DNA of 24,033 nucleotides from Coemansia sp. RSA 922 (Eukaryota; Kickxellomycota; Kickxellomycetes; Kickxellales; Kickxellaceae): the NCBI GenBank assembly GCA_027577415.1, contig JANBQS010000263.1:1-24033 (forward strand), in the 5' to 3' direction. Below are positions 3,096-24,033 of this stretch, piece after piece. Positions within the stretch are counted from its first letter, which is position 1; each line of letters begins with the position of its first letter. A program made the translations under genes and the position numbers. The notes under the pieces are model-generated. The model was not told the origin of the DNA, did no database searches, and worked only from the letters and a program-made list of their open reading frames with translations.

Positions 3096-3185
3096 GGTGC
3101 GAGAAAGTTAATTACTATAGTCAAAGTCAGTGAAGAGATAAGCAAGGGAGCAAAAACGCTCACAAAGTCGTGACGCACGAGACTA

Positions 3186-4190: not shown

Positions 4191-4212
4191 ACGACGCCAA
4201 CAGTTCGACGCC

Positions 4213-5429: not shown

Positions 5430-6095
5430 GCCGTTTATGATGAAGTCGTTTTGTTGGAGCCGTGTATGGGCACGAGCAAATGGTACTTAACTTGAAGATC
5501 AACTAGGAATGAGGCATGCTAGACTACATCGCTGATATACGAGTAAGTGCACTTAAAAGTTAATGGCTATAGTATAATACAAAGGCATTAATAGATGCTG
5601 GTCATAAATTCCTTTGCCTTACACCAAAACCATTAATTTTTAAGATACACTACCACCTGCCAACTTTATCGTCACTTACATCGGGTCTAATAGACAATAA
5701 TAACATGCAACTTATAAAAAACATTATCAGCGATACCCAACAGCATGTTGCTTTGATAACAGAAGAATACAAGTGCCCTTAACAATGTCTAGTTCAGGTT
5801 CAATACAACGAGCGGAAAGGTATGCGTTGGATAGTGACGATGCCAACAATTCAAAGCAAGGGTGGCAATGACAGGGTATTTATACTATTTTGGCAATGCA
5901 ATCATAAAGGCGCAAAAATAAGGAATGGGGCGACAACATTTGTTGATCTTCCCAAACCGTCCTGCCCGACCTCACCGACCATGTGAATTGGTAAGAGTAA
6001 GCCTCTTTTTCCATTTGGTACTCACCCCAACGGATCTGCACCTACACTGAGTCACAAACACACTGACACTTCATGGTTTCTCAGCGATTTTGCCA
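5430..6095. repeat. Dispersed repeat, copy B
   Basis: Diverged direct copy of the element at 3186-4190, same orientation, lacking the 24-base left block and the roughly 290-base internal segment of copy A. Like A it contains a GTATTTATA box (near 5876) and an AATTGGTAAG box (near 5986). Its right end runs straight into repeat R3 copy 1. The two copies flank the UTP20 relic. By eye the similarity is moderate, implying an old duplication. Confidence 0.7.
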
Positions 6096-6236
6096 TCGCG
6101 GGGCTTAGAGTCACAGTACACCGGCAGATGTGTACATCGTACCTGTACTCCACTCCTGTCTCAGCACTGTTGCAGTAGTTGTTGGTAGCACTACGAGTAA
6201 AGAGTGATGCCTTGCCATTAACCACTTGCATGTCTT
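6095..6236. repeat. Repeat R3, copy 1
   Basis: Aligns with 7935-8072 in the same orientation. Shared landmarks in order: GCGGGGCTT, CACAG.ACA, the CCACTC-TGTCTC stretch, CTGTTGCA/CTGCAATTG, TTGGTAGCACTAC/TTGGCAGCACTAC and AAAGAGT.AT. Both copies read open on the minus strand over about 45 codons with similar peptides (here starting MQVVNGKASLFTRSATNN), which suggests a decayed protein-coding segment of unknown family. Confidence 0.6.
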
Positions 6237-6465
6237 TCAGATCAGAGAAGGTACAAGGTTGCTGTTGCTAACAAGTAAAAAGAATGTGCAGGCCACCATG
6301 TCGACTTTTACTCACTACAAAATGCAGTGCTAGCCGCATAATCAAGTAATGGAGTTGGCCAATGTTTGGGTAAACTTGGCGATGGCTAGAATCATTCTGC
6401 TATGGTAGGTAGAGGCCACCGTACATCACTTGAGTAGAAAACCATCAATCCTTCCCCTACATGTC
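6237..6465. other. Non-coding spacer
   Basis: AT-rich sequence with no supportable gene. Its right end holds an imperfect hairpin (6456-6486, arms beginning CCTACAT and ending ATGTAGG) that overlaps the start of the tandem array. Confidence 0.4.
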
Positions 6466-6770
6466 CTTTGAGGAAAGGGATGTAGGACTTGGACATTGCC
6501 GCGCCCTTTTTTTTCTTGTTGAAGACAAGCGGAGGTGAGTGCACGGCACACCACCAAAAATCAATGCCTGCTGTATTGCTTTCTCTTTGATTCAAAGGAA
6601 ACTGGAGACTTGGATATAGCCACTTCCTTTTTTCTTGCTGCTTCTTGTTGAAGAAAAGCGGGGATGAGTGCACAGCACACCACTAAAAATAAAAACCCAC
6701 TTTATTGCTTTTCTTTGATTCAAAGGAAACTGGAGACTTGGATATGACCACTTTTGCTTTATTTTTAACC
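6466..6770. repeat. Tandem array, unit about 120-129 bp, two and a half copies
   Basis: Units start at CTTTGA-like boxes at about 6466, 6585 and 6713. Each continues with AAAGG...GGAGACTTGGATAT, a CCACTTC-type box and a T-run, then CTTGTTGAAGA-AAGCGG (6515 and 6644), GAGTGCAC-GCACACCAC and a TATTGCTTT box. The second and third units are nearly identical over about 40 bases; the first is more diverged. The array lies 170 bases upstream of the TATA box of the short gene at 7046 and may act in its regulation (inference). Confidence 0.75.
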
Positions 6771-6939
6771 TATGACGTAATAGTGGAAAGCAATGTGCAA
6801 AGCCTGCTGCCAAACAGCAAAAGATGACATCATCAAAGTCTGCGCAATATTTCACTACGTCATTGGAAAGTAGCTTTGGGAGGAGGAGAGTGGGTTTTTT
6901 TTAGTTCACCCTTGTAAGTGGGAATGTCCCAGTCTTTTG

Positions 6940-6951
6940 CTATAAAAAGCC
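6940..6951 (+). promoter_or_regulatory. TATA box of the short gene at 7046
   Basis: Sequence GCTATAAAAAGC lies about 95 bases before the ATG. It is followed by a C/A-rich leader (ACCATCCACCAACTACTCA) typical of a fungal transcription start and ending in ATCACC-ATG, a good initiation context. Confidence 0.65.
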
Positions 6952-7045
6952 AGCCTCCCTGGCACTATCAAACCATCCACCAACTACTCATTACTTTAAA
7001 CATTCTCAACTAGGCATTTCTCTGAACACCTTAGCTATTATCACC

Positions 7046-7384
7046 ATGACTTATTGCTTTGCCGCTATCCGTGGAGACGATAACTCTGTCAAGGTTGTTA
7101 ACCACGTTGAAATAACCAATGGTCTGGGAAATGCTGTCAAAATCCTAATGCCAAATGCCGACATAAATGAAGTTGGCAATGTACTTATTACCGAGAGTGG
7201 CTTTCGCAAAATCAAGGAATGGAATAAAAGTGATAGCAGTGTCTATATATTCACTGGATCCTATGAGCAATCACTGTGTGTAGTTACGCATTACGATAAT
7301 AATATGGCTGCCATCTTCAAGGACCTTATAGCCAGTGAAGAGATATATAAGAATACGTTACGAGAGCATGGGTTTGCCATCTAA
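7046..7384 (+). CDS. Short orphan protein, 112 residues
   Basis: I do not recognise this protein. The frame starts MTYCFAAIRGDDNSVKVVNH and ends TLREHGFAI. It has mixed hydrophilic and hydrophobic residues, no signal peptide, no membrane segment, four cysteines or fewer and no low complexity, so it looks like a small folded cytosolic protein. Support for a real gene comes from context: a TATA box 95 bases upstream, an ATCACC-ATG start, and an AATAAA signal 128 bases after the stop. Codons are more AT-rich than in the flanking conserved genes, in keeping with the accessory block around it. It could be a lineage-specific gene or the product of a domesticated element. Confidence 0.6.
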   Translation: MTYCFAAIRGDDNSVKVVNHVEITNGLGNAVKILMPNADINEVGNVLITESGFRKIKEWNKSDSSVYIFTGSYEQSLCVVTHYDNNMAAIFKDLIASEEIYKNTLREHGFAI

Positions 7385-7511
7385 TCATGTGCTGCCTGTC
7401 TAGTCCACACTTTACATTTGTTGACTGCTTTTGCATAAAGTTGCAAATGCTTATGACCATGTTACTTAGTAGACCCATTAAGGCACAACTGACATTTACA
7501 ACACGTTTTTA

Positions 7512-7517
7512 AATAAA
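7512..7517 (+). terminator. Putative poly(A) signal of the 7046 gene
   Basis: AATAAA hexamer 128 bases downstream of the stop codon at 7382-7384, within an A/T-rich 3' region. Confidence 0.5.
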
Positions 7518-7724
7518 TACTTTACACGGCTATACTGTTAACATTTAGTGTAACCTATTGTATATCAATTCAGAAGTGATATATGAAAATTTTGGATGTG
7601 TAGGATTTCGGCGTTCAGCGACGACATCCGACATTATTTATTGCTGCCTAATTTCTACGGCTATGATCAACGGCACCTCGATCACAAGCAGTAGCGCCGT
7701 TACTGCCCCACGGACCGTTTACCC

Positions 7725-7733
7725 CTATATAAG
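7725..7733 (+). promoter_or_regulatory. TATA-type core promoter without an assigned gene
   Basis: CTATATAAG followed at once by a GC-rich GGCCCCCGCACCAGCAGCCG leader, in otherwise AT-rich DNA. A similar TATA plus GCACCAGCA arrangement occurs at 8978-9005. The first ATG downstream on the plus strand (7874) opens a 73-codon frame that overlaps repeat R3 and is not convincing as a gene. Confidence 0.4.
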
Positions 7734-7934
7734 GGCCCCCGCACCAGCAGCCGCAGATGAGTTAGGCAATCACCTTTTATCTTTATTACTTTTATTTACT
7801 AAAATACAAAGACGTAAGGACTGGTGAACTTAGGCGTTAGCCGCAAACAACTCACATACTCCAAACCTACAGGATGTATGTAGTGCAGTGGCAATCCATA
7901 CCAATCAAACAAGGCATTGAGGTCATTCTGAATT

Positions 7935-8072
7935 ATGCTGTTGCGGGGCTTGGGCCACAGCACAGAGATGGGTGTGTATACCATGCCAGAACACCACTCT
8001 TGTCTCTTCCACCATTGCTGCAATTGTTGGCAGCACTACAGATAAAGAGTAATTTCTTGGCATCTATCACCA
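7935..8072. repeat. Repeat R3, copy 2
   Basis: Second copy of the 6095-6236 element, same orientation, moderate identity by eye. The equivalent minus-strand frame is open here too (AKKLLFICSAANNCSNGG region) but hits a stop after ATA where copy 1 continues. It lies just downstream of the 3' end of the gene at 8248-8550. Confidence 0.6.
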
Positions 8073-8154
8073 GCATACCATTCATTCTGGAGTAAGAACG
8101 AAGTATCTGTTGACTACATTTAAAAAAGACTGGAGTTTAGCTCATTAAAGCATT

Positions 8155-8161
8155 CTTTATT
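8155..8161 (-). terminator. Putative poly(A) signal of the 8248-8550 gene
   Basis: On the minus strand AATAAAG lies about 90 bases beyond the stop of the short minus-strand gene. Confidence 0.5.
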
Positions 8162-8247
8162 CTGGGAGCCGTCGTTGATATTTGTAAATGTTCTGTCATC
8201 TAGCATTACTTCTCATAATTGCTCTGAAGAGCAAGCCGATTCTGTCT

Positions 8248-8550
8248 CTACTGTTGAACAATGGCAAAGTAAATATTCATATCAATGCTAAATTCATCTC
8301 CGTTTCGAAGCAGTGTTCCACCCTTATTAGGGTGTCCACTATATAGCAATACAGCAAACTCTTTTGTCACCAAGTTCTTCAATCTGGTTATTACAAGAGC
8401 CCTTAAATCGAAAATAGTAGTGGTATTATCGACAGTACAATTGACCACTAGAGTATTTCCGCTTGCACATTGGTTCAAACATTTTATTTGAAAATTGTAG
8501 TTAACATGGCCTTCTGCAGTGCAACAATTGTCCATTTCTTCTAGTGTCAT
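8248..8550 (-). CDS. Short orphan protein, 100 residues, possibly ubiquitin-fold
   Basis: The frame starts MTLEEMDNCCTAEGHVNYNF and ends in a segment with alternating hydrophobic residues (TTIFDLRALVITRLKNLVTK, then EFAVLLYSG, then LLRNGDEFSIDMNIYFAIVQ). The order strand, helix, AVLLYSG strand, turn, and a final NIYFAIVQ strand resembles a ubiquitin-like fold with its helix and the LIFAG/STLHLVL-like strands. That is a guess from pattern only. There is no C-terminal Gly-Gly, so conjugation is unlikely. A TATA-like TTAAAAAG lies roughly 75 bases upstream of the ATG on the minus strand, and a poly(A)-like signal follows the stop. No signal peptide or membrane span. It could instead be an unrelated lineage-specific protein. 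Confidence 0.55.
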   Translation of the reverse strand: MTLEEMDNCCTAEGHVNYNFQIKCLNQCASGNTLVVNCTVDNTTTIFDLRALVITRLKNLVTKEFAVLLYSGHPNKGGTLLRNGDEFSIDMNIYFAIVQQ

Positions 8551-8970
8551 TTAAAATAATGTAAGTAGGTGTGTGCAGGGCAAAGAAGTGAAGGAAGAAA
8601 GAAAAAGCAAGGGCCGCTTGCTCTTCTTTTTAATGAGTGCCAGGATTTTCTTTACCCTCGTTTTTCCCGTTGATTGCGAGAGGAGGTGCTCTGACTGCAA
8701 ACATGTCAGGAGGACAGGAAAGTCCCTACTGTCACGTGTGGACTTGGGTGATCATATCAACTCCTTAAGCAGACAATCATTACCTTGATCCCTGGCATCA
8801 TCACATATTTTAATTTATTACATTATTGGCTCGATTGGAGCAGATGGTGCTCAAGTACATGGTGATAAATCAAGTTCTATCTTTTGGCCAGCACGGATCA
8901 GGCAAAGTGTTTATATCAGAGTAATTTTTAGCGGAGTAGGGTGTAGCTTGTATCAAATTCTGGAGAGCCA
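8551..8970. other. Promoter and spacer region
   Basis: Contains the presumed promoter of the 8248-8550 gene (TATA-like box near 8624-8632 read on the minus strand) and then AT-rich sequence in which I see no gene. A short plus-strand frame at 8573-8788 shows no family resemblance. Confidence 0.4.
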
Positions 8971-8977
8971 CGGTGAG

Positions 8978-8986
8978 TATTTAAGG
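8978..8986 (+). promoter_or_regulatory. TATA-like core promoter
   Basis: TATTTAAGG followed by GGCCGCGCACCAGCACTCTC, echoing the layout of the promoter at 7725. Downstream are a pyrimidine-rich leader and an AGGTAAG splice-donor-like site at 9102-9109, but no convincing open frame follows. Confidence 0.3.
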
Positions 8987-9089
8987 TAAGGCCGCGCACC
9001 AGCACTCTCCTGGCAAATATACTCTCTAACACTAATCGTTTCTATATTTCTGCTCTATTTCCTCATATTATGATACCTTGGTAAAAAAA

Positions 9090-9167
9090 AATTGATAGTC
9101 ACAGGTAAGACTATTTTACTAATGACGTTTTATTGCTATTGTTTTTAAATTGATAGTTAGAGGTAAG
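9090..9167 (+). repeat. Two-copy 20-base repeat with splice-donor-like core
   Basis: AATTGATAGTCACAGGTAAG (9090-9109) and AATTGATAGTTAGAGGTAAG (9148-9167) match at 18 of 20 bases and lie 58 bases apart. Each ends in AGGTAAG, the consensus 5' splice site. An ACTAATGA branch-site-like box lies between them near 9118. Confidence 0.55.
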
Positions 9168-9356
9168 TTTTTTGAATGGTAAGTATGCTGCAATTCATAT
9201 GGATGTCGCTGGTGGCAGTGAAAGACATCTAGTGGCGAACCATGAATATGCGAGAATTGATTTTTTTTAAATGAAATTGTATATTTTAAATTTTAGATGT
9301 TTGCGAGTAATGATTTACTGATCAAAAATATTAGACACTTTTCCGGCTTAAAGTTA

Positions 9357-9580
9357 TACAATATCCTCCATCTCCAGTGGTGGCGGCGGCGGTGTGGAGA
9401 CGGGTCAAACGTTACAGCAAGAGGAGGGTGCGGATATAACGGAGGCTGGCCATATTGGCCACATGGTGGAGTGGAGGTCCTAGCGTGCCAAAGGATGAGG
9501 GAGATGGTTGTTGGCCTGGCTGACCGAAGAAAAGGGGAATGGGTGGTGGGCCTGGCTGGCCAGATGAAAATGACAATGTA
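9357..9580 (-). pseudogene. Decayed proline/glycine-rich coding remnant
   Basis: Read on the minus strand, this GC-rich island in AT-rich DNA yields proline-rich peptides in different frames: SGQPGPPPIPLFFGQPGQQ, then after a frame change CGQYGQPPLYPHPPLAV, and finally STPPPPPLEMEDIV before a stop. Frames are interrupted, so this is either a broken low-complexity gene or compositionally biased junk. No family can be named. Confidence 0.3.
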
Positions 9581-9589
9581 TAATTAAAC

Positions 9590-9944
9590 ATTTTTTTAAA
9601 TAAAATTCAAATTTTATAAATAACAACTAGAAGGAGGGTTGAGAAAACGCTGGCAATTTATATCCTGAGAGTACTTGACTAGTGGAACATTTTCTTCAGC
9701 AAATGTCAATTTTGAATATTCCTCAAACATATCAGAAAAAGAGCATAAAATGAAGTCACGCAGGATAATTTACTTGTCAAAAACTGACTTTTAGGGACCA
9801 CAAGCATATTTAATTTCTGCACTGATATGTCATCTAAACCATGCCTCACTAGTTCTTCTGGCATATGATGTATGCACAAATGCAGTTCCAGATATTAAGT
9901 TGTCAAAAGAAACAAGATTAAAACAAGCTATTTGGGGTGGCTCG
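9590..9944. other. AT-rich spacer
   Basis: I see no gene, structured RNA or repeat in this stretch. Confidence 0.45.
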
Positions 9945-10337
9945 TCATAAGAAGTATTCTCCCTTCATCACAATTGTGCAGACCTTTTTCGCGCAGCACT
10001 TCTTTAGTACGCTCCTGACGCTTGCTGCGAGTAGATTCATGTTTTTGGGAGTTTTTTCTTTGTTTTGTTGCTCAGGATCGATGAAAGCCAGCTGATATTG
10101 CTGATTGTTCGGGTCTCCGATATGCTGTATCATGCCGAGCACCACCGAAAACGTCATGACCCCCTCACGTAGTGCTGCGCCAACCGGATGACCTTCTCCA
10201 GCCAGAGTCCTTATCTCTCCCAATATCTCTGTAGGCGATTTGGCGGTGTCTTTGAGCAAAAATCAAAGGGCATCGTGTACGCCTAGCGAGATAATTGCAG
10301 CACAGACCTTGCTGGTAGTACCACTGATCAGATCCAT
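9945..10337 (-). pseudogene. Reading frame with an in-frame TGA, unknown product
   Basis: From the ATG at 10337-10335 the minus strand reads MDLISGTTSKVCAAIISLGV, continues with HDAL, and hits TGA at 10265-10263. It then stays open for a further 105 codons or so (FLLKDTAKSPTEILGEIRTL ... VCTIVMKGEYFL) to a TGA at 9947-9945. The two parts have matching amino-acid character, as if a single codon had been lost to a stop. An intron skipping the stop would have to be about 34 bases, too short to be credible. No family is recognised; there are no signal or membrane segments. The first codons overlap the 24-base direct repeat, so the apparent start may be fortuitous. It may be a pseudogene or a shorter gene starting after the stop. 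Confidence 0.35.
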
Positions 10338-10400
10338 GTGGTAATCCGCTAGACACGATTTTCTCTCTCACTGGAGATCGACTTTTTTTCAGAAGTGCTC
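10312..10400. repeat. Dispersed repeat, copy C (left end only), with 24-base exact match to copy A
   Basis: 10312-10335 is identical over 24 bases to 3186-3209 (both start CTGGTAGTACC and end CAGATCC). A second exact block, GTAATCCGCTAG (10341-10352 versus 3219-3230), follows. Two weaker blocks, AGATCGACT and AGAAGTG (10374-10399 versus 3299-3315), follow in the same order. Both copies are on the same strand. This one lies about 230-320 bases upstream of the PRP8 start. Confidence 0.7.
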
Positions 10401-10628
10401 TCAGCGTCTACTGAGTTCAAATCGTCGCGTTCTTATATTTATATTTTTTGTTGAATTTTTTCTTGAAACCGCTACAGAACAATCGACACATTCGAAAAGG
10501 TAGGTCGCCACCCGTAGTCACAGAATGAGCAAAGGAGAAAAGCCAGCCCTTCGCTAAGCTAATTTTCAAAAAGTATACAAACATATCACTACTGTAGCCA
10601 AAAAGAAAAAAAAAACTATAAAAGGACG
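10401..10628 (+). promoter_or_regulatory. PRP8 upstream region
   Basis: About 230 bases of AT-rich sequence with T-runs and an A-run ending in ACTATAAAAGGACG directly before the PRP8 ATG. The TATA-like string lies only about 4 bases from that ATG, too close to position initiation upstream of it. It may be chance, or the true start may be a downstream Met (10644 or 10710). Confidence 0.4.
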
Positions 10629-13600
10629 ATGACTGGTTCTTCAATGAGCTCGTCACGCCGAGAGCGAGACGCGCATGGTAACCAGCAGCGTGCAGAGCCA
10701 GAGCAGTCAATGATTACTCCTCTCGATCCTCAGTTTGTACCAAGCGAACCTGCGCCGGCCGAGACGGACAAAAAGGCGCTCGAGTGGCGCAAGCTTAGCT
10801 CGCAGCGCTACGACACGAAGCGCCGCATGGGGTTTGCCGAGCAGGAAAAATGCGACATGCCGCCAGAGCACTTGCGCAAGATCATCAAGGACCACGGCGA
10901 CATGAGCGCGCGCAAGTACCGCCACGATAAGCGCGTCTACTTGGGAGCGCTCAAGTACGTGCCGCATGCCGTGCTCAAGCTGCTCGAAAACATGCCCATG
11001 CCGTGGGAGCAGGCGCGCGACGTGCCAGTGCTGTACCATGTAACTGGTGCCATCACTTTTGTTAACGAGATCCCCTGGGTTATCGAGCCCGTGTACATGG
11101 CGCAGTGGGGCTCCATGTGGATTATGATGCGTCGCGAGAAGCGCGATCGCAAACACTTTAAGCGCATGCGCTTCCCGCCATTTGACGACGAAGAGCCGCC
11201 CTTGGACTTTGGCGACAATCTGCTTGATGTCGAGCCCCTGGAAGCCATCCAGATGGAGCTCGATGAGGACGACGACGCGGCAGTCCTAGACTGGTTTTAC
11301 GACAGCAAGCCGTTGGCCGACGAAGACGAAGAGGACATTGCAAAGAGCGCGGTTGGCCGTCGCGTTAACGGCCCTTCCTATCGCAAGTGGAGGCTGGATC
11401 TGCCTGTGATGGCAAACTTGCACCGGCTTGCTAGCCAGCTGCTGTCGGACTTGATCGATCCGAATTTCTTCTATCTTTTCGACCTCAACTCGTTCATTAC
11501 GGCAAAGTGCCTGAATATGGCTATTCCGGGCGGACCCAAATTCGAGCCCATGTACCGCGATATCAACCCGGCGGACGAGGACTGGAACGAGTTTAACGAC
11601 ATCAACAAGATCATTATCCGTCAGCCAGTGCGCACCGAGTATAAGGTGGCGTTCCCGCACTTGTACAATTCACTGCCTCGCAAGGTACGCGTTGCTCCGT
11701 ACCACACACCAGCCGTGCAGTACGTGCGCCCCGACGACCCAGACCTGCCTGCGTTTTACTTTGACCCGGTAATCAACCCGATCTCCTCGCGCAGCCTCGT
11801 GTCGCAGTTCAAGGACGATGCGCGACTGGTCGAGGACGAGATCTTTGGCGACCAAGATGAGGACACCGACTTTGTGCTTCCGCTTGGCGCCTCGGCGTTC
11901 CTTGAGGATCAGCCCTTGGAGACCGAGAATACGGCTAATGGCATTGCTTTGTACTGGGCACCGCATCCCTTTAGCGCTCGCTCGGGCCGCACGCGTCGCG
12001 CAATGGACGTCCCGCTGGTTAAGGACTGGTACATGGAGCACTGTCCCCAGGGGCAGCCTGTCAAGGTGCGCGTATCGTACCAGAAGCTGCTGAAGAACTA
12101 CGTGCTGAACGCCATCCACTCCAGCCCGCCTCGTGCGCAGCGCAAAAAGTACCTGTTCCGGCAGTTCAAGGCGACTAAATTCTTTCAATCTACCGAGATC
12201 GATTGGGTTGAGGCTGGCCTGCAGGTGTGTCGACAGGGCCACAACATGCTCAACTTGCTGATCCACCGCAAGCGACTCAACTACCTGCATCTCGACTATA
12301 ACTTCAACTTGAAGCCCGTCAAGACGCTGACCACTAAGGAGCGCAAGAAGAGTCGCTTTGGCAATGCATTCCATTTGTGTGTTGCCGCGGGCACGCCAAT
12401 CAGTCTCGGCAGCGGCCTTGCTGTGCCCATTGAGCTTGTGCGTGGTGGTCAGGCGCTGCAATGCGTAGCGCCTAGTGACGACGGCGATAAGAGTGGTAGC
12501 AAGTCGATCCAGCTTTCAGGCCGCGCTGGCAGCGATGCGTTCCAAGTTCATGCATCGCCGCAGATATGCTTGCGCATTACCGGATTGGATGGGACCACGC
12601 TTGTCGTCACGCCATCCCACCCAGTGCTTGCCGTCCATGGTCACATTGGCGCTACCATTGAGGATGCCGAATACGTCCCGGCTGGGGAATTGACCAGGGA
12701 CCACTCCATTGTGTGCTCTGCCCTGTGGAGCGTCACTGACTCTCCTTCCAGCGACGCCGACTCTCAGTACCAGCTTTTGTCGTGGAACATGCAGAGCGAT
12801 CGCCAGCTCATTCTGGCATTTGCTCGCTTGCTCGGCGCCTTCCTCTCAAGCGGAGTCGCTGGCGTGAGCTCTAGCCAGCTCTGGTTCAGTCATGGCTCCG
12901 ATGCTGATCAGGCCGCGGCCGACATTGCTCTTATCTCCGGCGTGAAGGTCCTGATGCGTATTGGGTGTGGGCGAATCAACATGTCAGCACCTGGTGTACA
13001 CTTTGTGCTTGACGTGCCCGATGTTGTCAAGCAGATGTTTGCAAGTATCGAGTGCGCGCATGGCAGCCAATTCGTCTCTGCGCGCAGTGTCCCGCCAGTC
13101 ATTCGGCAGGCACCCGTGTCGGTCCAGAGAGAGTACTTGGCCGCTTGGTGGGGCGGCAGCTGTGCTGTCTCAGAGTCAGCCGAGGCTGCTCTTGGCAATG
13201 CACCTACCTCGTATGTCGCCGCTGATCCCAAATCGAACGATGTCCTGTGTGATTCGGTTCAGTGGATGCAGCGTGCTCTTCTCGAGAGCTTTGGCGTCGA
13301 GACCGCCTTTGTTGCCAACAGCAAAGTGCCGGCTGTCGATGGACACTACGCGGCAGGCTTGCGTCTGTTGCCAGACTCGTTTATGCCGTTTGTGGAAAAG
13401 GTCGGCGTGCGCTACTGCCGCCGCTTGCAAACCAGCTTTGATTTGTTGCGCCGCTGGCATGGCCATGTCAGCCAGCCCAGCACTGGCGACAGTTCGGCTA
13501 CCAAGCTTGCATTTGAGGCGTTTTCGCAGCTCGTGCGGTTGCCGTCAAAGTCGACTGCGCACATCGACAACTGGCAAGACGCGCTCGAGACAGCGGTGTT

Positions 13601-16600
13601 GATTCCTATTGTTCGAGTCGACGAGGAGGCCGAAGGGCGCCTAGTCTACGATATTTCGGTGCCTGGCCACGAGAACTTTGTCGCGGGAACTGTAGTAGTG
13701 CACAACTGCCGCGAGATTCTTCGTCTGACCAAGCTCATTGTGGATTCTCACGTCCAGTATCGCCTGGGCAACGTCGACGCCTTCCAGCTCGCCGACGGAC
13801 TGCAGTACTTGTTTGCGCATGTGGGCCAGCTGACTGGCATGTATCGCTACAAGTACCGGCTGATGCGGCAGATCCGCGCCTGCAAGGACTTGAAGCACCT
13901 GATCTACTACAGATTCAACTGCTTCCCAGAAGACCATCAGATCTTGACCGAGGATGGCTGGATGTACTTGATAGATGTTCAGAGGCACTTCGAGAGGCAC
14001 ACCAAACTGGGAATTGCCTGCTATGACGAGGGGCGCCTTGTATACCGCGATATTACCTCGGATAAGGTCACCGTGGCAGAAGAGACGCACGACCTTATCC
14101 ACATTGCCGAGAACGCTGAGGTTGCACGCAACAATATCGACCTCGTGGTAACTTCGGGACACCGCATGTGGGTCCGCACTGGTCCGTCCGCCCAAGATGA
14201 CGCGCCAGAAGGCGACTCGTTCAAAGTTATTTCGGCAGCCGAGGTGTATGAGCTCCGTCACTCTATCGGCCCTCACGCCTTGGTGCAGCTGGAGGCGAAC
14301 TGCCCACATGGTGTGGTGCAGGCCAAGCTCAGTGAATTGCCATTTTCGGCGTTGGGTCTACAATCCGATGACGAGATCTCGGCCTTCCTTGAGCTCTATG
14401 GGTACTGGCTTGGTGACCATGGCTCTCTGGACATGGGCTCTCGGACTGTAACCTTCGAATCTGCGAAGACTCGCGACTGGGACTATTTGGGCGTGCTCTT
14501 CGATCGACTTGAGCGTGTGTTGCCTTCAGTTGGAGTTGATACGGATCGGGTCGGGGATAAGTACACTGAAGTCCAAGGTCGTCGATATGTGGTCGATAAC
14601 GTGGCATGGTTCGAGTACATGGCCGCCGAGTATGGCGACAAGTGCCTATCTCCCAAGAGTGCCAAGTGGCTTTTCGAGTGGGTGCTTCGTGGATGCACCA
14701 AGGAACAGCTGAGGCTTATACTGCGTGGACTGAGTTTGGCTGATGGGGACGAGGCTTCGTCCCTGGCGAGCGGCAGTGTGGGCACGTCTTCAGTTAGGCT
14801 CAGGGATGAGCTACAGCGGGTGTGTCTGAATGCCGGGCTTAGCTGCTATTGGACCTTGTCGTATCCCAAGGGGACCAATAATGGCACCCACCAGCAAGGC
14901 CAAGCAATTATCGCTCAGCACGACCACTGGGTTGTCTCTTGGAGCGATGACGAGGCAGCGAGACCGGTGCTGACTGTTGAGAAGGAATTCAGCCAGGAGC
15001 AGCGCCACTGCAAAGTGTGGTGTGTCACAGTGCCGACTCAGCAGCAGCTGATCATTGTGCGGCGGGTGCGGCAGGTGCAAGACGGGGTCATTACATCCGC
15101 CTCGCGACCGGTCGTTATTGGAAACACTGGGCCAGTAGGAAAGGGTCCTGGAGTTGGCTTCTGGGCGCCTGGCTGGCGTGTATGGCTGTTCTTTTTGCGC
15201 GGCATTGTCCCCTTGCTCGAGCGCTGGCTGGGCAACCTGCTGGCACGCCAGTTCGAGGGCCGTAACTCCAAGGGCGTGGTAAAGTCGCTGACCAAGCAGC
15301 GCGTGGACTCGCACTACGATCTGGAGCTGCGCGCAGCTGTGATGCACGACATCCTCGATATGATGCCCGAGGGCATTCGCGGCAACAAGAGCAAGGTGAT
15401 CTTGCAGCACTTGTCGGAGGCCTGGCGGTGTCTCGCCCCCAACACTGAAGTCATCATGGCCAACGGCGCGATTGTCAAGGCGAAGGACATCACGGTTGGC
15501 AACAAGGTCCTCGGTCATGACGGCGCTGCCTTGACCGTCACGGACACTATGGTTGGCCAAGACGACGTCTACAAGGTCGCCTTCCTTCCTTTCTCATCTG
15601 CCCCCACGACGGACGAGAAGTGGACCTTTGTTGAAGACAACTTTGAGTGCAACAGCCGCCACACGCTTGTCCTCGTGTCACCCGAACTCGACGTAGTTAA
15701 CGTCTGCGACCTGGGTGAAAGCTGTACGTTCGAGGTGCATTACGCCGACCTTCTGCCCTGCAAGCCCATCGCAGGCGGTCCTACCACCGTGCTCGGTCAC
15801 ACGTCACGCACCTTCTCCTATTCCGTCGCCGGCATGTTCTCGTCTCTCACCGACGCCAAGGATGCAGCCAACAAGTTTGCAGCCGAGCTGAGGGCACGCG
15901 GATGCCTTACTTGGAATGTGGAAGCTGCGCAGTATGTCGCCTGGGCCAACATGTACCCCAAGGAAGCCGACAAGATGCGCATGTTCCGACCTCACGAACC
16001 GATTACCTTTCCCCTGGCCTCCTCTGTCGATGTCCTTGATGTCATCAAGAACACGCTTCACAAAGCCAAGCCAGGCGTCACCGAGTGCGACATCGCGTAC
16101 CTCATGGGCCTCCACATGGCCGCCGGCCACGGCACCTCGATGGAGTTCTTTGTCGGTCTTGACGAGATGACGATTGTGGACTTTTTCGAGGATATCGCGC
16201 CGAAGCTCGACCTCAACTTGTCCAAGACGCAACATGCAACCGAGAAGATGTGGATTGTCCGCCTGTCTCGCACAAACGGCATGGGGCAAGGCAATAACCT
16301 CCGCGACATCTTTGACGTCTTCGGTTATGCTAGCAAGGACTCTGTTGATGGCAATACTGTGTCCAACATCCTGAGCCAGTCGATCGCGTTCCGTCGCTCC
16401 CTCCTCGCCGGCTTTATTGACGGCGACGGCAATAAAGAGAAGTGCAAGCACTGCCTAGCCTCGTATGCCTACTCGGTCGTTCAGGGTGTCGACTCTGACT
16501 ACACCATCGGGCATGATGAGATTATCAAGCTTGTTCAGAAGGTTGCCCGTAGTCTCGGTCTCATTTGCGACCTCTACTCGTACACCAATGCTGCGTCGAC

Positions 16601-19600
16601 CGTTGCGACATCTGTGGGAACGCGTTGGTCCGCTTCGATAACTGGCGACAATGTCCATCTTATCCCATGCAGGGAGAAGCCAATCGGCCCTCACGACTGC
16701 AATGGCTCGACCTGCTATCTCGGTGTTGTCGATTTCCACATTCGCAAGCGCTCCCAGCCTGGACCTTACTGTGGTTTCACCCTCGACAAGTCGCCTCTCT
16801 TCCTTCTTGGCAACTTTGTGGTCACTCACAACTGCTACAAGGCCAACATCCCCTGGCAAGTACCAGGCATGCCCAAGCCCATCGAGAACATGATCTTGCG
16901 CTATGTAAAGTCCAAGGCCGATTGGTGGACTTCCGTGGCCCACTACAACCGCGAGCGCATCCGCCGCGGCGCGACAGTCGACAAGGCTATTGCTCGTCGC
17001 AACTGTGGACGTCTCACGCGGCTGTGGCTCAAGGCCGAGCAAGAGCGTCAGCGCAACTACCTGAAGGACGGACCCTACGTGAGCGCCGATGAGGGCGTCA
17101 CTATTTACGTAACGGCCGTACACTGGCTCGAGTCGCGCCGCTTCTCGCCTATCCCGTTCCCGCCCCTGTCGTACAAGCACGACCCCAAGCTGCTTATCTT
17201 GGCACTGGAACGCCTGCGCGAGTCGTACTCGGTCCAGGGCCACTTGAATTCGTCGCAGCGCGAAGAGTTGGGCCTCATCGAGCAGGCCTTCGATGAGCCT
17301 CACAGTGCTCTTGCTCGCATCAAGCGCCTGTTGCTCACGCAGCGTGCGTTCAAAGAGGTCGGCATCGAGTTTATGGACATGTACTCGCACTTGATCCCCG
17401 TGTTTGACATTGAGCCGCTCGAGAAGATCACCGATGCGTACCTGGACCAGTATCTGTGGTACGAGGCTGACAAGCGCCGGCTGTGGGCACCGTGGGTCAA
17501 GCCAGCCGACTCTGAGCCATCGCCATTGCTGGTCTACAAGTGGTGCCAGGGCGTTAACAACCTTGACGGAGCTTGGAACACGGCTAATGGCGAGTGCACA
17601 GTCATGCTGGAGGCCAAGCTTTCGCGCGTGTTTGAGAAGATCGACCTTACTCTGCTCAACCGGCTGTTGCGCTTGATTCTGGACCACAACTTGGCTGACT
17701 ACATGACTGCCAAGAACAACGTGGTCATCAGCTTCAAGGACATGAACCACGTCAACTCGTACGGTCTGATCCGCGGTCTACAGTTTGCGCCATTCATCTT
17801 CCAGTACTACGGCATGATTATCGACATTCTGATCCTCGGTTTGCAGCGTGCCAGCGAGATTGCTGGCGCGCCAACCATGCCTAATGACTTTTTGCAGTTC
17901 AAGGACGTCGAAACGGAGCGCAGACACCCGATCCGCATGTACATGCGGTACATTGACCGTGTCTATATGCTGCTGCGCTTTGACGACCAAGATGACTCGC
18001 GCGAGCTCATCCAGCGCTTCTTGACGGAGAACCCCGATCCGAATAACGAGAACGTTGTTGGCTACAACAACAAGCGCTGCTGGCCTCGCGACAGCCGCAT
18101 GCGACTAATGAAGCACGACGTCAACCTTGGCCGTGCCGTATTTTGGGATATCAAGAACCGCCTGCCGCGCTCACTGACGACGATTGAGTGGGACGACGAG
18201 GCGAGCTTTGTCAGCGTGTACTCGCGCGACAATCCCAACTTGCTCTTTGACATGGCTGGCTTTGAGGTGCGTATTCTGCCAAAGTGCCGCCAACTGACCG
18301 AGGGCTCGGCTGCACAAGACGGCTCGTGGGCACTTATTGACGATCGCAGCAAGGAACGCACGGCAACTGCCTTCTTGCGTGTTGACGACGCGTCGATTCA
18401 GCGGTTCAACAACCGAATCCGCCAGATCCTCATGTCATCGGGTAGCACGACGTTTACCAAGATCGCCAACAAGTTCAACACGGCGCTGATTGGCTTGATG
18501 ACGTACTATCGCGAGGCCGTAGTGCATACGCGAGAGATGCTCGATTTGCTGGTCAAGGCAGAGACCAAGATCCAGGCGCGCATCATGCTGGGCCTGAACT
18601 CCAAGGACAGCAACCGCATGCCACCCGTCATTTTCTACTGCTACGGCGCTGGCTTCCGCGTGCGCATGGCCGATGGGTCGACCAAGGCCATTGAGGACAT
18701 TTCTGTTGGCGACCAAGTTCTCGGCGCAGATGGACTGCCTCGCGACGTTGCTCACACCATGTCTGGCTCAGCGCCACTGTTCAGCGTGTCGCTAGCCAAG
18801 CCAAAGACCAAGTGCGACGATAACCACGTCCCACTGAACTACAATGCGCCTGTCGTGCGGACGGCTAGCAGCATCTCGGTGCAAAGCATTTGCTCAGGCA
18901 TCTCTAGCGACAGCATCGAATCTGCGCAAGGAGTGACTGACGCCGATGAGCTCTTGTTCAACGACTCGTTCCTTTGTAACGAGAAGCATCGGCTGGTCAT
19001 TCGCGTGTCGACCAAGTGTGAAATGCGCGAGAAGGCCTGTCGCGTGGCTCAGTCGCAGTGGTCTGATGTCGGGTCGTTCGTCGTCGAGTTTGTTACTCTC
19101 AAACTTGATGATGAGCTCGGCTTTGAGCGTCCGTATGTGGCCAAGCAGGTCTTTGAGTACAACACCAACTTCTTTGGTTTGGCCGAGAATGGTAAGGCAC
19201 TGGCGCTGAGAGAGGCCACTGCACACACAGAGAAGATGCGCGCGCTGGCTGTTAGCGCTGGCGCATCGCCTGACTGTGTGTACGTCTGGCACGACAAGCA
19301 AAAGGCAGCGTACCGGGTCATGTCGAACCGCTATCCTGAGAGCCTACCTCCTCCTTGTCGCTCGATGTGCTATGGCTGCGTGCCGGCTGCGTCGTCCAAT
19401 CTGGTGTTCAACTCGAAGGATGAAGCCCGGGCTGCAGCACAAGCCGCTAGCCCCAAGAGCGACCACATTACTTGGACTGTTGGCGTGGACGACTATCTGG
19501 AGTACGTCAGGCGTATGGACGCCCTTGGCGAAACTCCCGTGCCTTGCGTGATGGCCTACAGTGGCAAGGTCAGCACCTGGGTGCCAAGAGTTGGTACCAA

Positions 19601-22600
19601 TGCGTCAGCCAGATATCACCGTGGTATACTCAAGCTGCTTGCCGATAGCCCTGAGAGCCAGCTGGTCGACATTGAACAGCTTGCCTGGGCGCTTGGATGC
19701 TGGCTGTGTGGCAGCGACGCATTTGGCAACTGTGGCAGTACGCTGGGCTCTGGCATCGCTGAGTCTGTTGTGCTCCACTGGACCAAAACCGTAGCGACTG
19801 CCAACAATAACAGTTCTGAGCAGCCCTCCGCGTTTGCCACGCTGCTCAGTGGTCTTGGGCTTGCCGATACGCGCGAAGTATCTGTCGAGGCGCGCGACTT
19901 GCTAGTGGCCGAATCACCCGCGACGCGGTTCGCCTTGCTAGCTGGCATGCTAGATGTGTGTGGAAAAATGGCCAGCGATGGGCGCATGGTTATTGCGCAA
20001 CCACTGGCCAACGAGTCGTCGCTGCGCCTAGCTTACGAAGTTGCAAGGTCGCTTGGGCTGGAGACGATCACTAGAAAGAACGCCACGCATGGCTTTGTCA
20101 TGGTTCGTGGCGACTTTGCCGCAATGCCCAGCGTGACCTCCGTTTGCTCGGGCAATAGCTCCAGCGGCCGCTCGCTGTCTGACTGTGAAAGCACTAGTAG
20201 CTCGCAGCATGTCGGGCACTTTGAGGTTTCGACACTGCCTGTGACTACGGGCGAGTACTACGGCTTCCAGGTCGCCGAGGGCCAGTCGCCATTGTTCTGC
20301 CATGGCGACTTTGTGGTTGGATCCAATTGTCCCAAAGAGCTGGGCGGTCTGGGCATGCTTTCGATGGGCCACGTGCTTATCCCGCAGTCCGATCTGCGGT
20401 GGTTCAAGCAGACCGACACTGGTATTTCGCATTTCCGCGCTGGCATGTCGCATGAGGACGGCCAGATGATCCCCAATTTGTTCCGGTACATCTTGCCTTG
20501 GGAGAGCGAGTTTGTCGACTCGCAGCGCGTGTGGGCTGAGTATGCCCTGAAGCGGCAAGAGGCCAATGCACAGAACCGTCGGTTGACGCTCGAGGACTTG
20601 GAGGACTCTTGGGACCGTGGTATTCCGCGCATTAACACGCTGTTCTCCAAGGATCGCCACACGCTGGCCTACGACAAGGGCTGGCGTATTCGCACAGAGT
20701 GGAAGCAGTATCAGCTCCCCAAGGCGAACCCGTTCTGGTGGACTCATGCCAAGCACGACGGCAAGCTGTGGCAGTTGAACAACTACCGCACGGATATGAT
20801 CCAAGCGCTAGGCGGTGTTGAGTGTATTCTGGAGCACTCACTCTTCCGCGGCACGTATTATCCGACTTGGGAAGGTCTGTTCTGGCAGCAGCAGTCGACG
20901 TCGTTCTCAGGTGCCATGGGTCAGCGTCAGCTCACCAACGCTCAGCGCTCGGGTCTCAACCAGATTCCCAATCGTCGCTTCACCATGTGGTGGTCACCCA
21001 CGATCAACCGCTGCTTCAAGCCGGATACTAAAGTGTTTATGGCCAATGGTTCAGTCCGCGCTATAAAGGACATTTGCGCAGGCGACTACGTGCTGGGCCC
21101 TGACTCGAAGGAGCGACTAGTCGATTCGGTCCACTCGGGTATGGATACTATGTATGAGGTGCGGGAGTGGCGCCAAGATGACATGACGTCTGGATCTAGT
21201 GACATCGGACTTGCGTCGTTCGTTTGCAATTCGCACCACATCCTGCACTTGGTGTCGCGCATGTTTGTCAGTGACGTGATGTATGACGACGAAGGGTTTG
21301 GAACACTAGTCGTCGATTACACGGCGTTAAAGCTCACGACGCTTGTTGGCGGCGAAGAAGTAAAGTTGGTCGTATGGGAGAGGAAGAAGTTCCCCTTTTC
21401 GAAGGACGTCATATCGGTGGGTTTGGCTCACGAGGCGGCACATTGGTTTATTAAAGGCTTGGACATGTCGCCTATCACCTGGGAGCTGGATGCCCGCCTC
21501 TACGAGCAAGTAAGCGATTCTATCCGTAATCGCACTTATCAACTGGCGGCTCCAATTCTGATTGAGAACAACGTGTTTGCTCCACTGGTTACTGCAGTGG
21601 GCCTGCCTTTGAGCTCCTCGAACGAAGTTGCCTTTTTGATTGGACTCTGGATCAACTGCGGCGACCCGAGGGCCCCAGTACTCTACCTGCCTAACGGCAA
21701 GTTGGATATTGTCAGGCATGTTTTGCAGATCTGCGAGCATATCGGCCTTCGCGTCTCTGAGGAGCCAGAATCGGGTGAACCCGATGTTGAGGGTGCCGAG
21801 CCTATTTACATTCTCGACGACGTACCCGGGACGGACTCTAACAGGTTCTGGAATCTGATTCTAAAACTCGGACTCGGTACTTCGGATGCATCGTCTGTAC
21901 CAGAGTTCTTTGCCACAGATCTCCTCCAGGTCCGTGAACACCTGCTGGCTGGTCTTATTGGCTTTGAGAGATGTATTGTGGACCCAGCGCCGGCGACCAT
22001 CTTTGAACTCAATCTTAAAGCCAGTTCTGAACCGGCTCGTTACGCGGACTATAAAGCGGAACTAGATCAGTATTCGGGCGTGACGTTCTTCGGTTTGTCG
22101 GGTGCTTTTGTCCCTGGTTTATTTGCCATAGCCAGATCGCTTGGTATTCAGTATGATTCCCTGATCGACGAGGGAGAGTTGGCAGCCAAGCTTATGCCGT
22201 GCAGCGCAATGACCAGCGTCCTTGCTCTCGGGGTAGCCTATAACGGATCCATAAAGCCGCCTGCCGTTGTTCGCCGCTTCCCAGCCCAGTACAGATTCGA
22301 GGTGACCAAATATGGATCAAGCCAGGGCGAGTACGTTGGACTGACGCTGGAAGACTCGTCGGACCAGCTGTTTGTGCTGGCCAACAACACCGTCGTACAC
22401 AACTCCAACGTCTACGTGGGCTTCCAAGTGCAGCTAGATCTGACGGGTATTTTCATGCACGGCAAGCTGCCAACGCTGAAGATCTCCTATGTGAGCTTGT
22501 TCCGAAGCCATGCGTGGCAAAAGTCGCACGAGAGTCTGATCTTGGATCTGTGCCAGGTTCTCGACAACGAGCTGGAGCCCCTGCAGATCGAGACCGTGCA

Positions 22601-24033
22601 GAAGGAGGCGATTCATCCGCGCAAGTCGTACAAGATGAGCAGTTCGGCGGCCGACATTACTTGCTTTGCCTCGTACAAGTGGCCGGTATCGACGCCCAGC
22701 CTATTGACTGACGCGAGCGACCGCATGGATGCGGGCACGACGCAAAAGTACTGGATCGACGTGCAGCTGCGCTGGGGCGACTACGACTCGCACGATATTG
22801 AGCGGTACGCGCGTGCAAAGTTCCTGGACTACACGACGGACAGCATGAGCCTGTATCCATCGCCGACGGGCATCATTGTTGGCGTGGATCTGGCGTACAA
22901 CATGTACTCGGCATACGGAAACTGGGTGCCTGGCATGAAGCCGCTGATGCAGCAAGCCATGGCCAAGATCATGAAGGCCAGTCCCGCCTTGTACGTCATC
23001 CGCGAGCGCATTCGCAAGGCGCTGCAGCTCTTTTCGTCGGAGCCCACCGAGAGCTACCTCAACAGCACCAACTACGCAGAGCTGTTCTCGCATCAAACTT
23101 GCTGGTTTGTCGACGACACCAATGTGTATCGCGTCACTGTGCAAAAGACGTTTGAGGGTAACCTGACCTGCTTCCCCGTCGAGGACCATCAGCTGCTGAC
23201 AGAGTTTGGCTTCTGGAGCCTGGCTCAAGTTCAAACGCACTTCCAGAGCCATGCTACGCTGAACATGGCGTGCTATGTCGACGGAGTGCTCGAGTACCAT
23301 CCGATCACAGTCGACGATATCACCGTTGACGAGGGCACGCATGACCTGGTTGAGATGACTGGATCGACAGGAAAGCGTCCCGAGGATACCAACGACGTGT
23401 CGCTTATGCCGACTGCCAACCATCGCATGTTGCTGCGCGTTGGTGCCACAGTCAATGAGCGCGAGTGGGTGTCGAGCGATGATACGATGCTGCCGCCCTT
23501 TGAAGTGCACACGGCAGGATCGGTATTAGACAAGGGCAACAGCGATGAGTCGGTAGCTGCTCAGTTTATTGCCCGCTTTGCTGGAGGCGCAGCGACGACG
23601 GATTGTGCCGACAGACTGCCATTCATGGACGCGCTGGGCTTGCAGACCGACGATGAGGTTGATGCCTTCTTGCAGTTGTACGGTTACTGGCTTGGATCCG
23701 GGTGTCTGTTCGGTCGTGACGCAGACACTGTGCAGTTGGTATCCAAGATGCCGGCAATCGACAACTACCTCGATTCCTTGTTTGAGAAGCTCCATCGCGT
23801 ACTCCCAATGTCTGCAGGTGGTGCAGCTAGCGGAGTACATATGAGCTATATTGCGGAAAGTGCAGAACTTTCCAACTATCGCCTATATGGCATTGTGGAC
23901 GCAAGGTGGTTGGCGTACTTTAAAGCAGAGTGCCCTTACGATTACAAATGCGGAGGATGGCTCTGGGAGTGGGTGTGGAAGCGCTTGGATATGCGCCAGC
24001 TGCGCCTTATTGTCGTCGGCCTGCACACGGCCA
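10629..24033 (+). CDS. PRP8: Pre-mRNA-splicing factor PRP8 carrying at least six inteins (3' end beyond the window)
   Basis: One open frame with no intron or stop runs from the ATG at 10629 to the window end. The extein parts (10629-12377, 13707-13919, 15126-15428, 16833-18638, 20328-21011, 22404-23168) join to 1,840 residues closely matching the first three quarters of PRP8. PRP8 is the U5 snRNP scaffold that cradles the catalytic snRNA core. Visible landmarks: the N-terminal domain ([32 protein letters not shown]), the RT-like region ([36 protein letters not shown]), the linker ([20 protein letters not shown]), and the start of the RNase H-like domain with its paired Asp ([12 protein letters not shown]). 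The rest of RNase H and the Jab1/MPN domain lie outside. The first 40 residues are not conserved, so M1, M6 or M28 could be the true start. Each intein must be removed by protein splicing before PRP8 can work. Confidence 0.97.
   Translation, partial: [4468 protein letters not shown]
12378..13706 (+). mobile_element. Intein 1 of PRP8 (443 residues), degenerate endonuclease
   Basis: In-frame insertion between extein residues 583 and 584 (NAFHL | CREILRLTK). It has a complete splicing domain: Cys1 in [10 protein letters not shown], block B TPSH (residues 78-81), and C-terminal [20 protein letters not shown] followed by Asn443, then native Cys as +1. The middle should be a LAGLIDADG homing endonuclease, but the motif positions read LLGAFLSSG (151-159) and YLAAWWGGS (253-261). 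Neither keeps the catalytic Asp, so it is probably unable to home and is now fixed or vertically inherited. Its classic block F and TxxH motif set it apart from the other five. Codon use matches the host gene. Confidence 0.93.
13920..15125 (+). mobile_element. Intein 2 of PRP8 (402 residues), endonuclease motifs intact
   Basis: Inserted between extein residues 654 and 655 (LIYYRFN | TGPVGKGPG). The N-terminus is [14 protein letters not shown] and block B is TSGH (78-81). The C-terminus is [19 protein letters not shown] ... RPVVIGN, then Thr as +1; the usual penultimate His is Gly. Both LAGLIDADG motifs are preserved, [10 protein letters not shown] (159-168, Asp166) and LRGLSLADG (268-276, Asp275), so this is the best candidate here for an active homing endonuclease. 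It is clearly related to intein 6 along its whole comparable length and not to the others. Confidence 0.93.
15429..16832 (+). mobile_element. Intein 3 of PRP8 (468 residues), one endonuclease motif intact
   Basis: Inserted between extein residues 755 and 756 (LSEAWR | CYKANIPW), only 101 extein residues after intein 2. The N-terminus is [20 protein letters not shown], block B is NSRH (75-78), and the C-terminus is [19 protein letters not shown] with native Cys as +1. The first LAGLIDADG motif is degenerate (LMGLHMAAG, 225-233, Asp replaced by Ala). The second is perfect ([10 protein letters not shown], 325-334), followed by the SYAYSVVQG and [16 protein letters not shown] segments typical of fungal nuclear-gene inteins. 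One missing acid predicts loss of double-strand cleavage. A family with inteins 4 and 5. Confidence 0.93.
18639..20327 (+). mobile_element. Intein 4 of PRP8 (563 residues), large, degenerate endonuclease
   Basis: Inserted between extein residues 1357 and 1358 (PPVIFY | CPKELGGLG). The N-terminus is [20 protein letters not shown] and block B is NEKH (114-117). The C-terminus is [20 protein letters not shown] followed by VGSN, so Ser replaces the usual penultimate His. The +1 residue is Cys, where PRP8 relatives have Thr. Endonuclease motifs are decayed: LGCWLCGSD (342-350) and [10 protein letters not shown] (423-432, catalytic Asp replaced by Cys). It is about 100 residues longer than inteins 3 and 5, partly through a Ser/Cys-rich loop near residues 490-515 and a longer insert before block B. 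A [13 protein letters not shown] segment near 270-280 is a recognition-region motif of this intein family. Confidence 0.92.
21012..22403 (+). mobile_element. Intein 5 of PRP8 (464 residues), degenerate endonuclease
   Basis: Inserted between extein residues 1585 and 1586 (WSPTINR | SNVYVGFQV). The N-terminus is [20 protein letters not shown], block B is NSHH (73-76), and the C-terminus is [20 protein letters not shown] followed by His-Asn. The +1 residue is Ser, where other PRP8 proteins have Ala. LAGLIDADG motifs: [10 protein letters not shown] (208-217, Asp replaced by Cys) and LLAGLIGFE (311-319, with Glu at the catalytic place). Probably inactive for homing. The splicing domain appears complete. 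Confidence 0.93.
23169..24033 (+). mobile_element. Intein 6 of PRP8, N-terminal 288 residues (cut by window end)
   Basis: Begins after extein residue 1840 (KTFEGNLT | ...). In relatives the next residue is Thr, so the +1 is probably Thr as for intein 2. The N-terminus is [15 protein letters not shown] and block B is TANH (82-85). The first endonuclease motif is LYGYWLGSG (170-178), with Ser in place of Asp. The second motif position is reached exactly at the window end ([12 protein letters not shown]). Close in layout and sequence to intein 2, including PF-x-ALGLQ-DDE-x-x-AFL-x-LYGYWLG and FE(K/R)L-RVLP segments. The insertion lies just after the paired Asp of the RNase H-like domain. Confidence 0.9.

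Follow-up and report, generated by a model that had tools for sequence, protein, structure and literature searches.

A Coemansia PRP8 gene with six inteins and multi-intein PRP8 genes across the Kickxellomycota

Does a single PRP8 gene hold six inteins and, if so, how did they accumulate in it? This question is raised by a 24,033-base window (the whole stretch of DNA analysed), which is the entire contig C263 of a Coemansia genome (Kickxellomycota) assembled into 960 contigs (20.4 Mb). On its plus strand, an ATG at position 10629 opens a frame of 4,468 codons that reaches the contig end (10629-24032). A sequence-only reading had proposed that this single frame is a PRP8 gene with at least six in-frame inteins, five complete and one partial, and that the second and third exteins measure 71 and 101 residues. 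The borders mapped in the window bear this out, and a second, full-length copy of the gene on contig C261 contains exactly six inteins. The features of the frame are as follows (site numbers are residue positions in this gene without inteins; a slash within a motif marks a splice junction):

10629..24032, plus strand: PRP8 frame with six inteins, broken off inside intein 6 (complete gene on C261, minus strand, 2866-18267)
10629..12377, plus strand: extein 1, 583 aa, PRO8NT and start of PROCN
12378..13706, plus strand: intein 1, 443 aa, site 583 (human 546/547), C..HN/C; Intein_splicing E 2e-8, just below cut-off, intein_Cterm above cut-off
13707..13919, plus strand: extein 2, 71 aa
13920..15125, plus strand: intein 2, 402 aa, site 654 (human 617/618), C..GN/T; both endonuclease acids present, AlphaFold model matches VMA inteins
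15126..15428, plus strand: extein 3, 101 aa
15429..16832, plus strand: intein 3, 468 aa, site 755 (human 718/719), C..HN/C; Hom_end_hint E 6e-23, least constrained
16833..18638, plus strand: extein 4, 602 aa
18639..20327, plus strand: intein 4, 563 aa, site 1357 (human 1317/1318), C..SN/C; Hom_end_hint E 1e-17
20328..21011, plus strand: extein 5, 228 aa, containing the empty Prp8-a site (1546) and an altered 1585 loop
21012..22403, plus strand: intein 5, 464 aa, site 1585 (human 1544/1545), C..HN/S; Hom_end_hint E 6e-42, PI-SceI sequence match E 2e-26
22404..23168, plus strand: extein 6, 255 aa
23169..24032, plus strand: intein 6, first 288 of 409 aa, site 1840 (human 1799/1800), C..GN/T on C261; 39% identical to intein 2

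The C261 copy encodes 5,133 residues, and the earlier estimate of a precursor of about 4,500 residues holds for the truncated window frame but not for the full gene. Its seven exteins (583, 71, 101, 602, 228, 255 and 544 residues) sum to 2,384 residues, i.e. Prp8, and intein 6, complete on this contig, measures 409 residues. The frame in the window encodes PRO8NT, PROCN, RRM_4, the U5/U6-binding domains and domain IV, the remainder of which lies on C261. The two contigs are collinear, with 96.7% identity across the gene-bearing stretch and 86-89% in four upstream blocks, and look like two haplotypes or the products of a recent duplication. Extein 4 is 100% identical to a protein of Coemansia sp. 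S2 and 99% identical to that of C. aciculifera, while the cleaned exteins are 99.8-99.9% identical to fragments from Coemansia sp. S2 and S100, both of which carry inteins at the same sites wherever they cover them. The window also contains, on the minus strand, a class V aminotransferase gene (1890-3095) and a muskelin-like N-terminus (3-545).

All six inserts begin with Cys and end with Asn (intein 6 being read on C261), followed by Cys, Thr, Cys, Cys, Ser and Thr, respectively, which agrees with what had been read from the letters. Directly before the final Asn stands His in three of them (1, 3 and 5), Gly in two (2 and 6) and Ser in intein 4; replacements of the penultimate His occur in natural inteins. 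A TxxH or NxxH block B was likewise found in each of the six, as had been claimed (TPSH, TSGH, NSRH, NEKH, NSHH and TANH in the C261 copy), although such a string alone is weak evidence ([TNSVC]xxH is present in 73% of shuffled sequences) and its position agrees with the fold model for intein 2 only. The exteins, which had been said to rejoin into conserved PRP8, do so without alignment gaps against human Prp8 at all six junctions used.

The Pfam family Hom_end_hint matches inteins 3, 4 and 5, whereas intein 1 scores 34.6 bits against Intein_splicing (cut-off 35.8 bits) and exceeds the cut-off of intein_Cterm. Inteins 2 and 6, which share 39% identity over their full length, match no Pfam intein family; their lineage is undetected by Pfam and NCBIfam models, and intein 2 has no sequence match in the PDB. 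An AlphaFold2 model of intein 2 (mean pLDDT 91.4; input alignment of 39 sequences, including 38 relatives) was compared with known structures using Foldseek, which returned VMA inteins, including PI-SceI, as the best matches (E about 1e-13 to 1e-10, TM about 0.5-0.57), followed by LAGLIDADG endonucleases such as I-DmoI. Intein 2 is therefore predicted to have the HINT fold, which is likewise assigned to inteins 1, 3, 4 and 5 on the Pfam matches and to intein 6 through its identity to intein 2. For intein 2, the protein collection contains 39 relatives of suitable length. Most of those covered at both ends start with Cys and end with Asn, and for many of the 39 precomputed domains indicate hosts such as PRP8 domain IV, RPB2, dual-specificity phosphatase, kinase, GTPase and others. 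In seven proteins (P0140, P0143, P0144, P0146, P0148, P0149 and P0151) a relative of intein 2 stands directly before a Cys within ..H/C..N/CxAGxxRS, where CxAGxxRS is the active-site motif of dual-specificity phosphatases. Since inteins 2 and 6 are related, inteins 3, 4 and 5 are weakly related to each other and intein 1 has no significant match among the other five, the gene holds three intein lineages. A scan of viral contigs for a source of intein 2, which detects close relatives only, gave nine pattern matches and no confirmed relative.

Two other explanations of the inserts, to both of which we give practically no credence, are that they are removed from the mRNA as introns, and that the locus is an assembly artefact or a pseudogene beside a working gene without inserts. 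Fungal genes can hold introns and nothing further speaks for the former; the five complete inserts lack GT..AG up to six bases from their borders, and together they form 2,340 codons without a stop (log10 P about -38, mononucleotide model), which, with the frame being intact across the inserts of C261 as well, excludes chance. The two copies differ by no frameshift, the sole gap between them being in frame and in intein 6, and the inserts show both intein motifs and purifying selection on their residues. The latter was measured between C261 and C263, i.e. two copies from one genome. The exteins (1,840 codons) contain 88 synonymous and 4 nonsynonymous differences (dN/dS about 0.012), and their host product is therefore taken to be functional; the inteins (2,627 codons) contain 156 and 140, respectively. 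In inteins 1, 2, 4 and 5 the nonsynonymous share of all changes (11/43, 29/57, 16/46 and 26/53) is clearly below the neutral share of about 0.76, indicating purifying selection, while intein 3 (44/63, P 0.13) is indistinguishable from neutral in this two-copy comparison. The partial intein 6 has a dN/dS of 0.19. Constraint is strongest on the inteins at sites 583 and 1357 (dN/dS 0.10 and 0.16) and weakest on that at site 755 (0.69); splicing ends are somewhat more constrained than middles (pN/pS 0.20 vs 0.33, the split being approximate). As regards an artefact, it is true that the window contig ends within intein 6 and that two near-identical contigs exist, but both carry inserts at the same sites, as do the S2 and S100 fragments where they cover them, and the exteins are strongly constrained. 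No intein-free PRP8 was found in the assembly by searches with the 602-residue extein 4, which yielded only the two copies, and with domain IV, which yielded only C261 and C263.

The number and sites of inteins in other PRP8 genes, a survey of which the sequence-only reading had recommended, were determined from an extein 4 search among proteins of about 2,460-7,800 residues, using the best 120 of 431 matches together with the window. These 121 proteins contain 220 inserts at 19 sites (189, 583, 641, 654, 755, 808, 913, 967, 1305, 1330, 1357, 1463, 1497, 1546, 1585, 1634, 1666, 1840 and 1916), of which 214 start with Cys, end with Asn and are followed by Cys, Ser or Thr, the end motif missing in six; twelve inserts lying more than 4 residues from the 19 sites and without clean intein ends are outside the 220. 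A second search, for PRP8 proteins no shorter than about 3,550 residues, retrieved 28: 24 from Kickxellomycota (16 Coemansia, Mycoemilia, one Smittium and six Dimargaris/Dispira/Tieghemiomyces), one from Entrophospora, one from Favolaschia (with no intein-like inserts) and two others. Coemansia and Mycoemilia belong to the Kickxellales and Dimargaris to the Dimargaritales, all within Kickxellomycota, to which Smittium, Dispira and Tieghemiomyces also belong.

Multi-intein PRP8 is a clade-wide feature of the Kickxellomycota, with 3-10 inteins per gene. Among the listed proteins, those of Coemansia have 3-6 (six each in this gene, C. biformis, Coemansia sp. RSA 989 and Benny D115) and those of Dimargaris 8-9: nine each in D. 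verticillata and D. xerosporica (eight without the site-a intein, which was set by hand) and eight in D. cristalligena. Dispira simplex has seven and Mycoemilia scoparia ten, with a 13-residue extein between its sites 641 and 654. The same sites are filled across Coemansia, Mycoemilia and Dimargaris. Site 583 is filled in all Coemansia genes that cover it and site 1357 in nearly all, while sites 654 and 755 vary (C. aciculifera has no intein at 654, and RSA 2050 none at 755). Site 1546 is taken to be Prp8-a, because it is the common fungal site and is located in the 1585 loop, and it is empty in this gene; a placement of intein 4 at Prp8-a, suggested by a weak match to the Cryptococcus Prp8 intein, was rejected, as intein 4 lies at 1357. 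Outside the named Kickxellomycota, the PRP8 protein P0164 (JGI, 5,028 aa) has seven intein-like inserts (755, 808, 1357, 1546, 1634, 1840 and 1916), with endonuclease acids kept in the last four or so.

Compared across hosts, 208 of 226 inteins are matched best by an intein at their own site and 17 by one at a different site, and one has no match. The 18 exceptions comprise six non-PRP8 inteins of this genome, five inteins at once-sampled sites and seven that have same-site partners and are better matched elsewhere (Dispira 641, 755, 1463, 1634 and 1666, Entrophospora 1634 and Auxenochlorella 654). On a host tree of 23 rows, occupancy changes once at site 583 (20 filled, Mycoemilia empty, two without coverage), twice at 1357 and 1585, three times at 1546 and 1840, four times at 913, six times at 654 and seven times at 755. 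After masking of poorly aligned regions and removal of the S2/S100 fragments, intein distances track host distances at sites 583, 1357, 1546, 1585 and 1840 (13, 0, 0, 0 and 22 of 2,000 permutations as high, respectively) and more weakly at 755 and 913 (74 and 47), and do not follow the host at 654 (345 of 2,000). In uncleaned gene models no host signal was found at 583 (586 of 5,000 permutations as high), site 654 being null either way.

The site-583 intein tree recovers all five host clades, and the inteins at 583 and 1357, this gene's two most stable sites and also its most constrained between copies, are long-term fixtures of Coemansia, while those at 654 and 755 turn over. The history is not purely vertical: intein trees recover host clades A, B and F but miss C at site 1357, recover B and F but miss C and D at 1585, recover A and B but miss D at 1546, and recover well only F at 755, and site 654 does not track the host. 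The site-583 intein is 44% identical to that of the amoeba Acytostelium and 44-52% identical to those of four Coemansia outside the closest clade; since the Acytostelium value equals that of some Coemansia, the deeper history of this site includes transfer or very uneven rates. As sites 1840 and 654 share a lineage, inteins have also spread within the gene at some time.

An active LAGLIDADG endonuclease uses two acids, in blocks C and E (PMC10849329). Both were found in 3 of 117 Kickxellomycota inteins (2/80, 1/13 and 0/24 by lineage) and in 10 of 27 elsewhere (8/22, 1/3 and 1/2), with a Fisher P of 2e-6 for data that are not independent, near-identical species being counted. The counts include three non-PRP8 inteins of this genome and are without inteins of 330 residues or fewer, site 1546 and the proteins P0001, P0002 and P0019. 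Among the six PRP8 inteins here, only intein 2 retains both acids; inteins 1, 3, 4, 5 and 6 do not. Judging from the lost catalytic acids, most homing endonucleases of the clade are presumably dead, and most inteins are for this reason likely to be inherited vertically at present and not by homing.

The inserts are thus very probably self-splicing inteins, mostly with homing endonucleases that are presumably dead, and inherited largely vertically. One PRP8 gene (in two near-identical copies) would have been invaded at six separate sites by three intein lineages. The 5,133-residue precursor would be translated whole, and each intein would excise itself on its own flanks by the class 1 route (attack by Cys1, transfer to the +1 Cys, Ser or Thr and cyclisation of the last Asn), leaving the 2,384-residue Prp8; the anatomy would demand no order of splicing. 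Prp8 is probably inactive before splicing, given that conserved core sequence surrounds all six sites. Accumulation would be ratchet-like: repeated homing into near-invariant sites is followed by endonuclease decay, and loss is possible only by exact deletion, which would be difficult in a gene that cannot be broken. Repeated invasion of such sites together with the difficulty of exact deletion is probably the cause of the high numbers, although gain or exact loss does happen, because sites 654 and 755 turn over.

It is distinctly improbable, in our estimate, that the inteins act as a regulatory gate, an idea raised in the sequence-only reading and unsupported here, in which slow or condition-dependent splicing (metal, redox, temperature) sets the supply of active Prp8 and of the spliceosome. 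Across Coemansia, sites 583 and 1357 keep their inteins while the two endonuclease acids are not both retained, these inteins have the two lowest dN/dS values, and precedents exist in the inhibition of a Cryptococcus Prp8 intein by copper (PMC6805012) and in the two inteins of one DnaB, which differ in splicing rate and stress response (PMC6195587). Constraint on splicing is, however, expected for any intein in an essential gene, and purifying selection does not favour a gate, because the need for clean splicing explains it equally well; moreover, close species differ freely at 654 and 755. Self-splicing inteins remain the preferred reading. A proposal that we consider unlikely, if somewhat less so, is that Kickxellomycota Prp8 depends on three to ten splicing events and that the 583 and 1357 inteins, with endonucleases predicted to be dead, are no longer parasites and have been retained as a step of maturation, whether as an aid to folding, for timing or for the stress gating of spliceosome assembly.

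Occupancy at site 1585 goes along with a changed host residue after the intein. Here the +1 residue is Ser in all 16 filled rows (this genome counted twice, so that the rows are not independent), while in 106 empty rows it is Ala in 97 and Ser in 4; the mature Prp8 thus retains a mark of the site-1585 intein. At site 1357, the 24 filled rows have Cys (20) or Thr (3), one being unread, and the empty rows have Thr (57), Cys (32), Ser (5) or Ala (3), again with one unread. The 1585 loop, described as a motif helping both RNA splicing steps (PMC6805012), is located in extein 5 (window 20328-21011, spliced residues about 1544-1558). It is rewritten to QQQ[SV]TS..GAMGQRQ in this genome and in 20 of 20 covering Coemansia rows, whether the site-a intein is present or absent; the other rows have GFEE (87 of 99), a close variant (three) or no match (nine).

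Open-access papers describe seven Prp8 intein sites, a-g, with site a in the 1585 loop and site g in Acytostelium (PMC6805012), as well as 104 Prp8 inteins, eIF5B inteins in two fungal groups (PMC5784728) and the history of site a (PMC1508164). As 583 and 1546 are the only filled sites of the Acytostelium protein, site 583 is probably site g. The inteins of the present gene share with these the host protein, Cys1, the last Asn, the +1 nucleophile, conserved sites and a LAGLIDADG domain or its remains, but there are six per gene here and up to ten in relatives versus usually one, the usual site a is empty, and the examined proteins (best 120 of 431 plus the window) have 19 sites versus seven described. 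PI-SceI/VMA1 resembles inteins 3, 4 and 5 in Hom_end_hint, intein 5 by sequence and intein 2 by predicted fold; host and sites are different, and in each of inteins 3, 4 and 5 one or both endonuclease acids are missing. Archaeal and bacterial MCM, RFC, ribonucleotide reductase and DnaB are likewise essential genes with more than one non-allelic intein (PMC1635734, PMC10643990 and PMC6195587), several inteins per gene being frequent in euryarchaea (PMC10643990); the present case is different in that a eukaryotic nuclear gene holds six, of three lineages. Among the examples given in PMC1635734 are genes with three and four inteins, including Trichodesmium ribonucleotide reductase with four, named in 2006 as an example of a loaded gene, and RPB2 inteins; relatives of intein 2 occur in RPB2 proteins, but its lineage, shared with intein 6, escapes the Pfam and NCBIfam models. 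More than one intein per eukaryotic genome has been regarded as remarkable or rare (PMC5784728, PMC10849329), and a smut genome has three (PMC10849329). The suggestion that this is among the most intein-loaded nuclear genes therefore stands insofar as six is well above the numbers in these sources, but some of its relatives exceed it. No report of a multi-intein Prp8 in Coemansia, Kickxellomycotina, Kickxellales, Harpellales, Dimargaris, Mycoemilia or Dispira was found in the open-access literature, including PMC8778642 and PMC12292046, and broader searches of the same literature brought up none either.

Intein-bearing PRP8 thereby moves from a curiosity (one intein, at times two) to a natural experiment that spans a clade: about two dozen related genomes carry between three and ten inteins each in one essential gene, part of them fixed with predicted-dead endonucleases and part of them turning over. 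Whether inteins can become useful or are parasites and nothing else, a long-standing question, is thereby directly testable in the Kickxellomycota. These genes are also a source of numerous natural splicing elements, in places separated by very short exteins, such as that of 13 residues in Mycoemilia. It should be kept in mind that gene models and markers such as RPB2 can hide inteins in these fungi.

Inteins are not limited to PRP8 in this genome, which has them at at least ten distinct sites in at least five genes. A 432-residue intein was identified in VMA1 (contig C82, L018, 3569-6718 plus) and a 462-residue one in RPB2 (contig C2, L023, 2102-7255 plus). Three copies of an eIF5B-like GTPase (L019, L020 and L021, on the minus strands of contigs C504, C953 and C385, respectively; domains checked for L020) each contain a 378-residue intein inside the P-loop (GHVDTGK/C..HN/T), with 92-96% mutual identity. 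Finally, an EF-Tu gene, which by the look of its sequence is of mitochondrial type (contig C76, L022, 1788-4061 minus), has a 297-residue intein between HYAHVD and CPGHADY that is related to PRP8 inteins 2 and 6.
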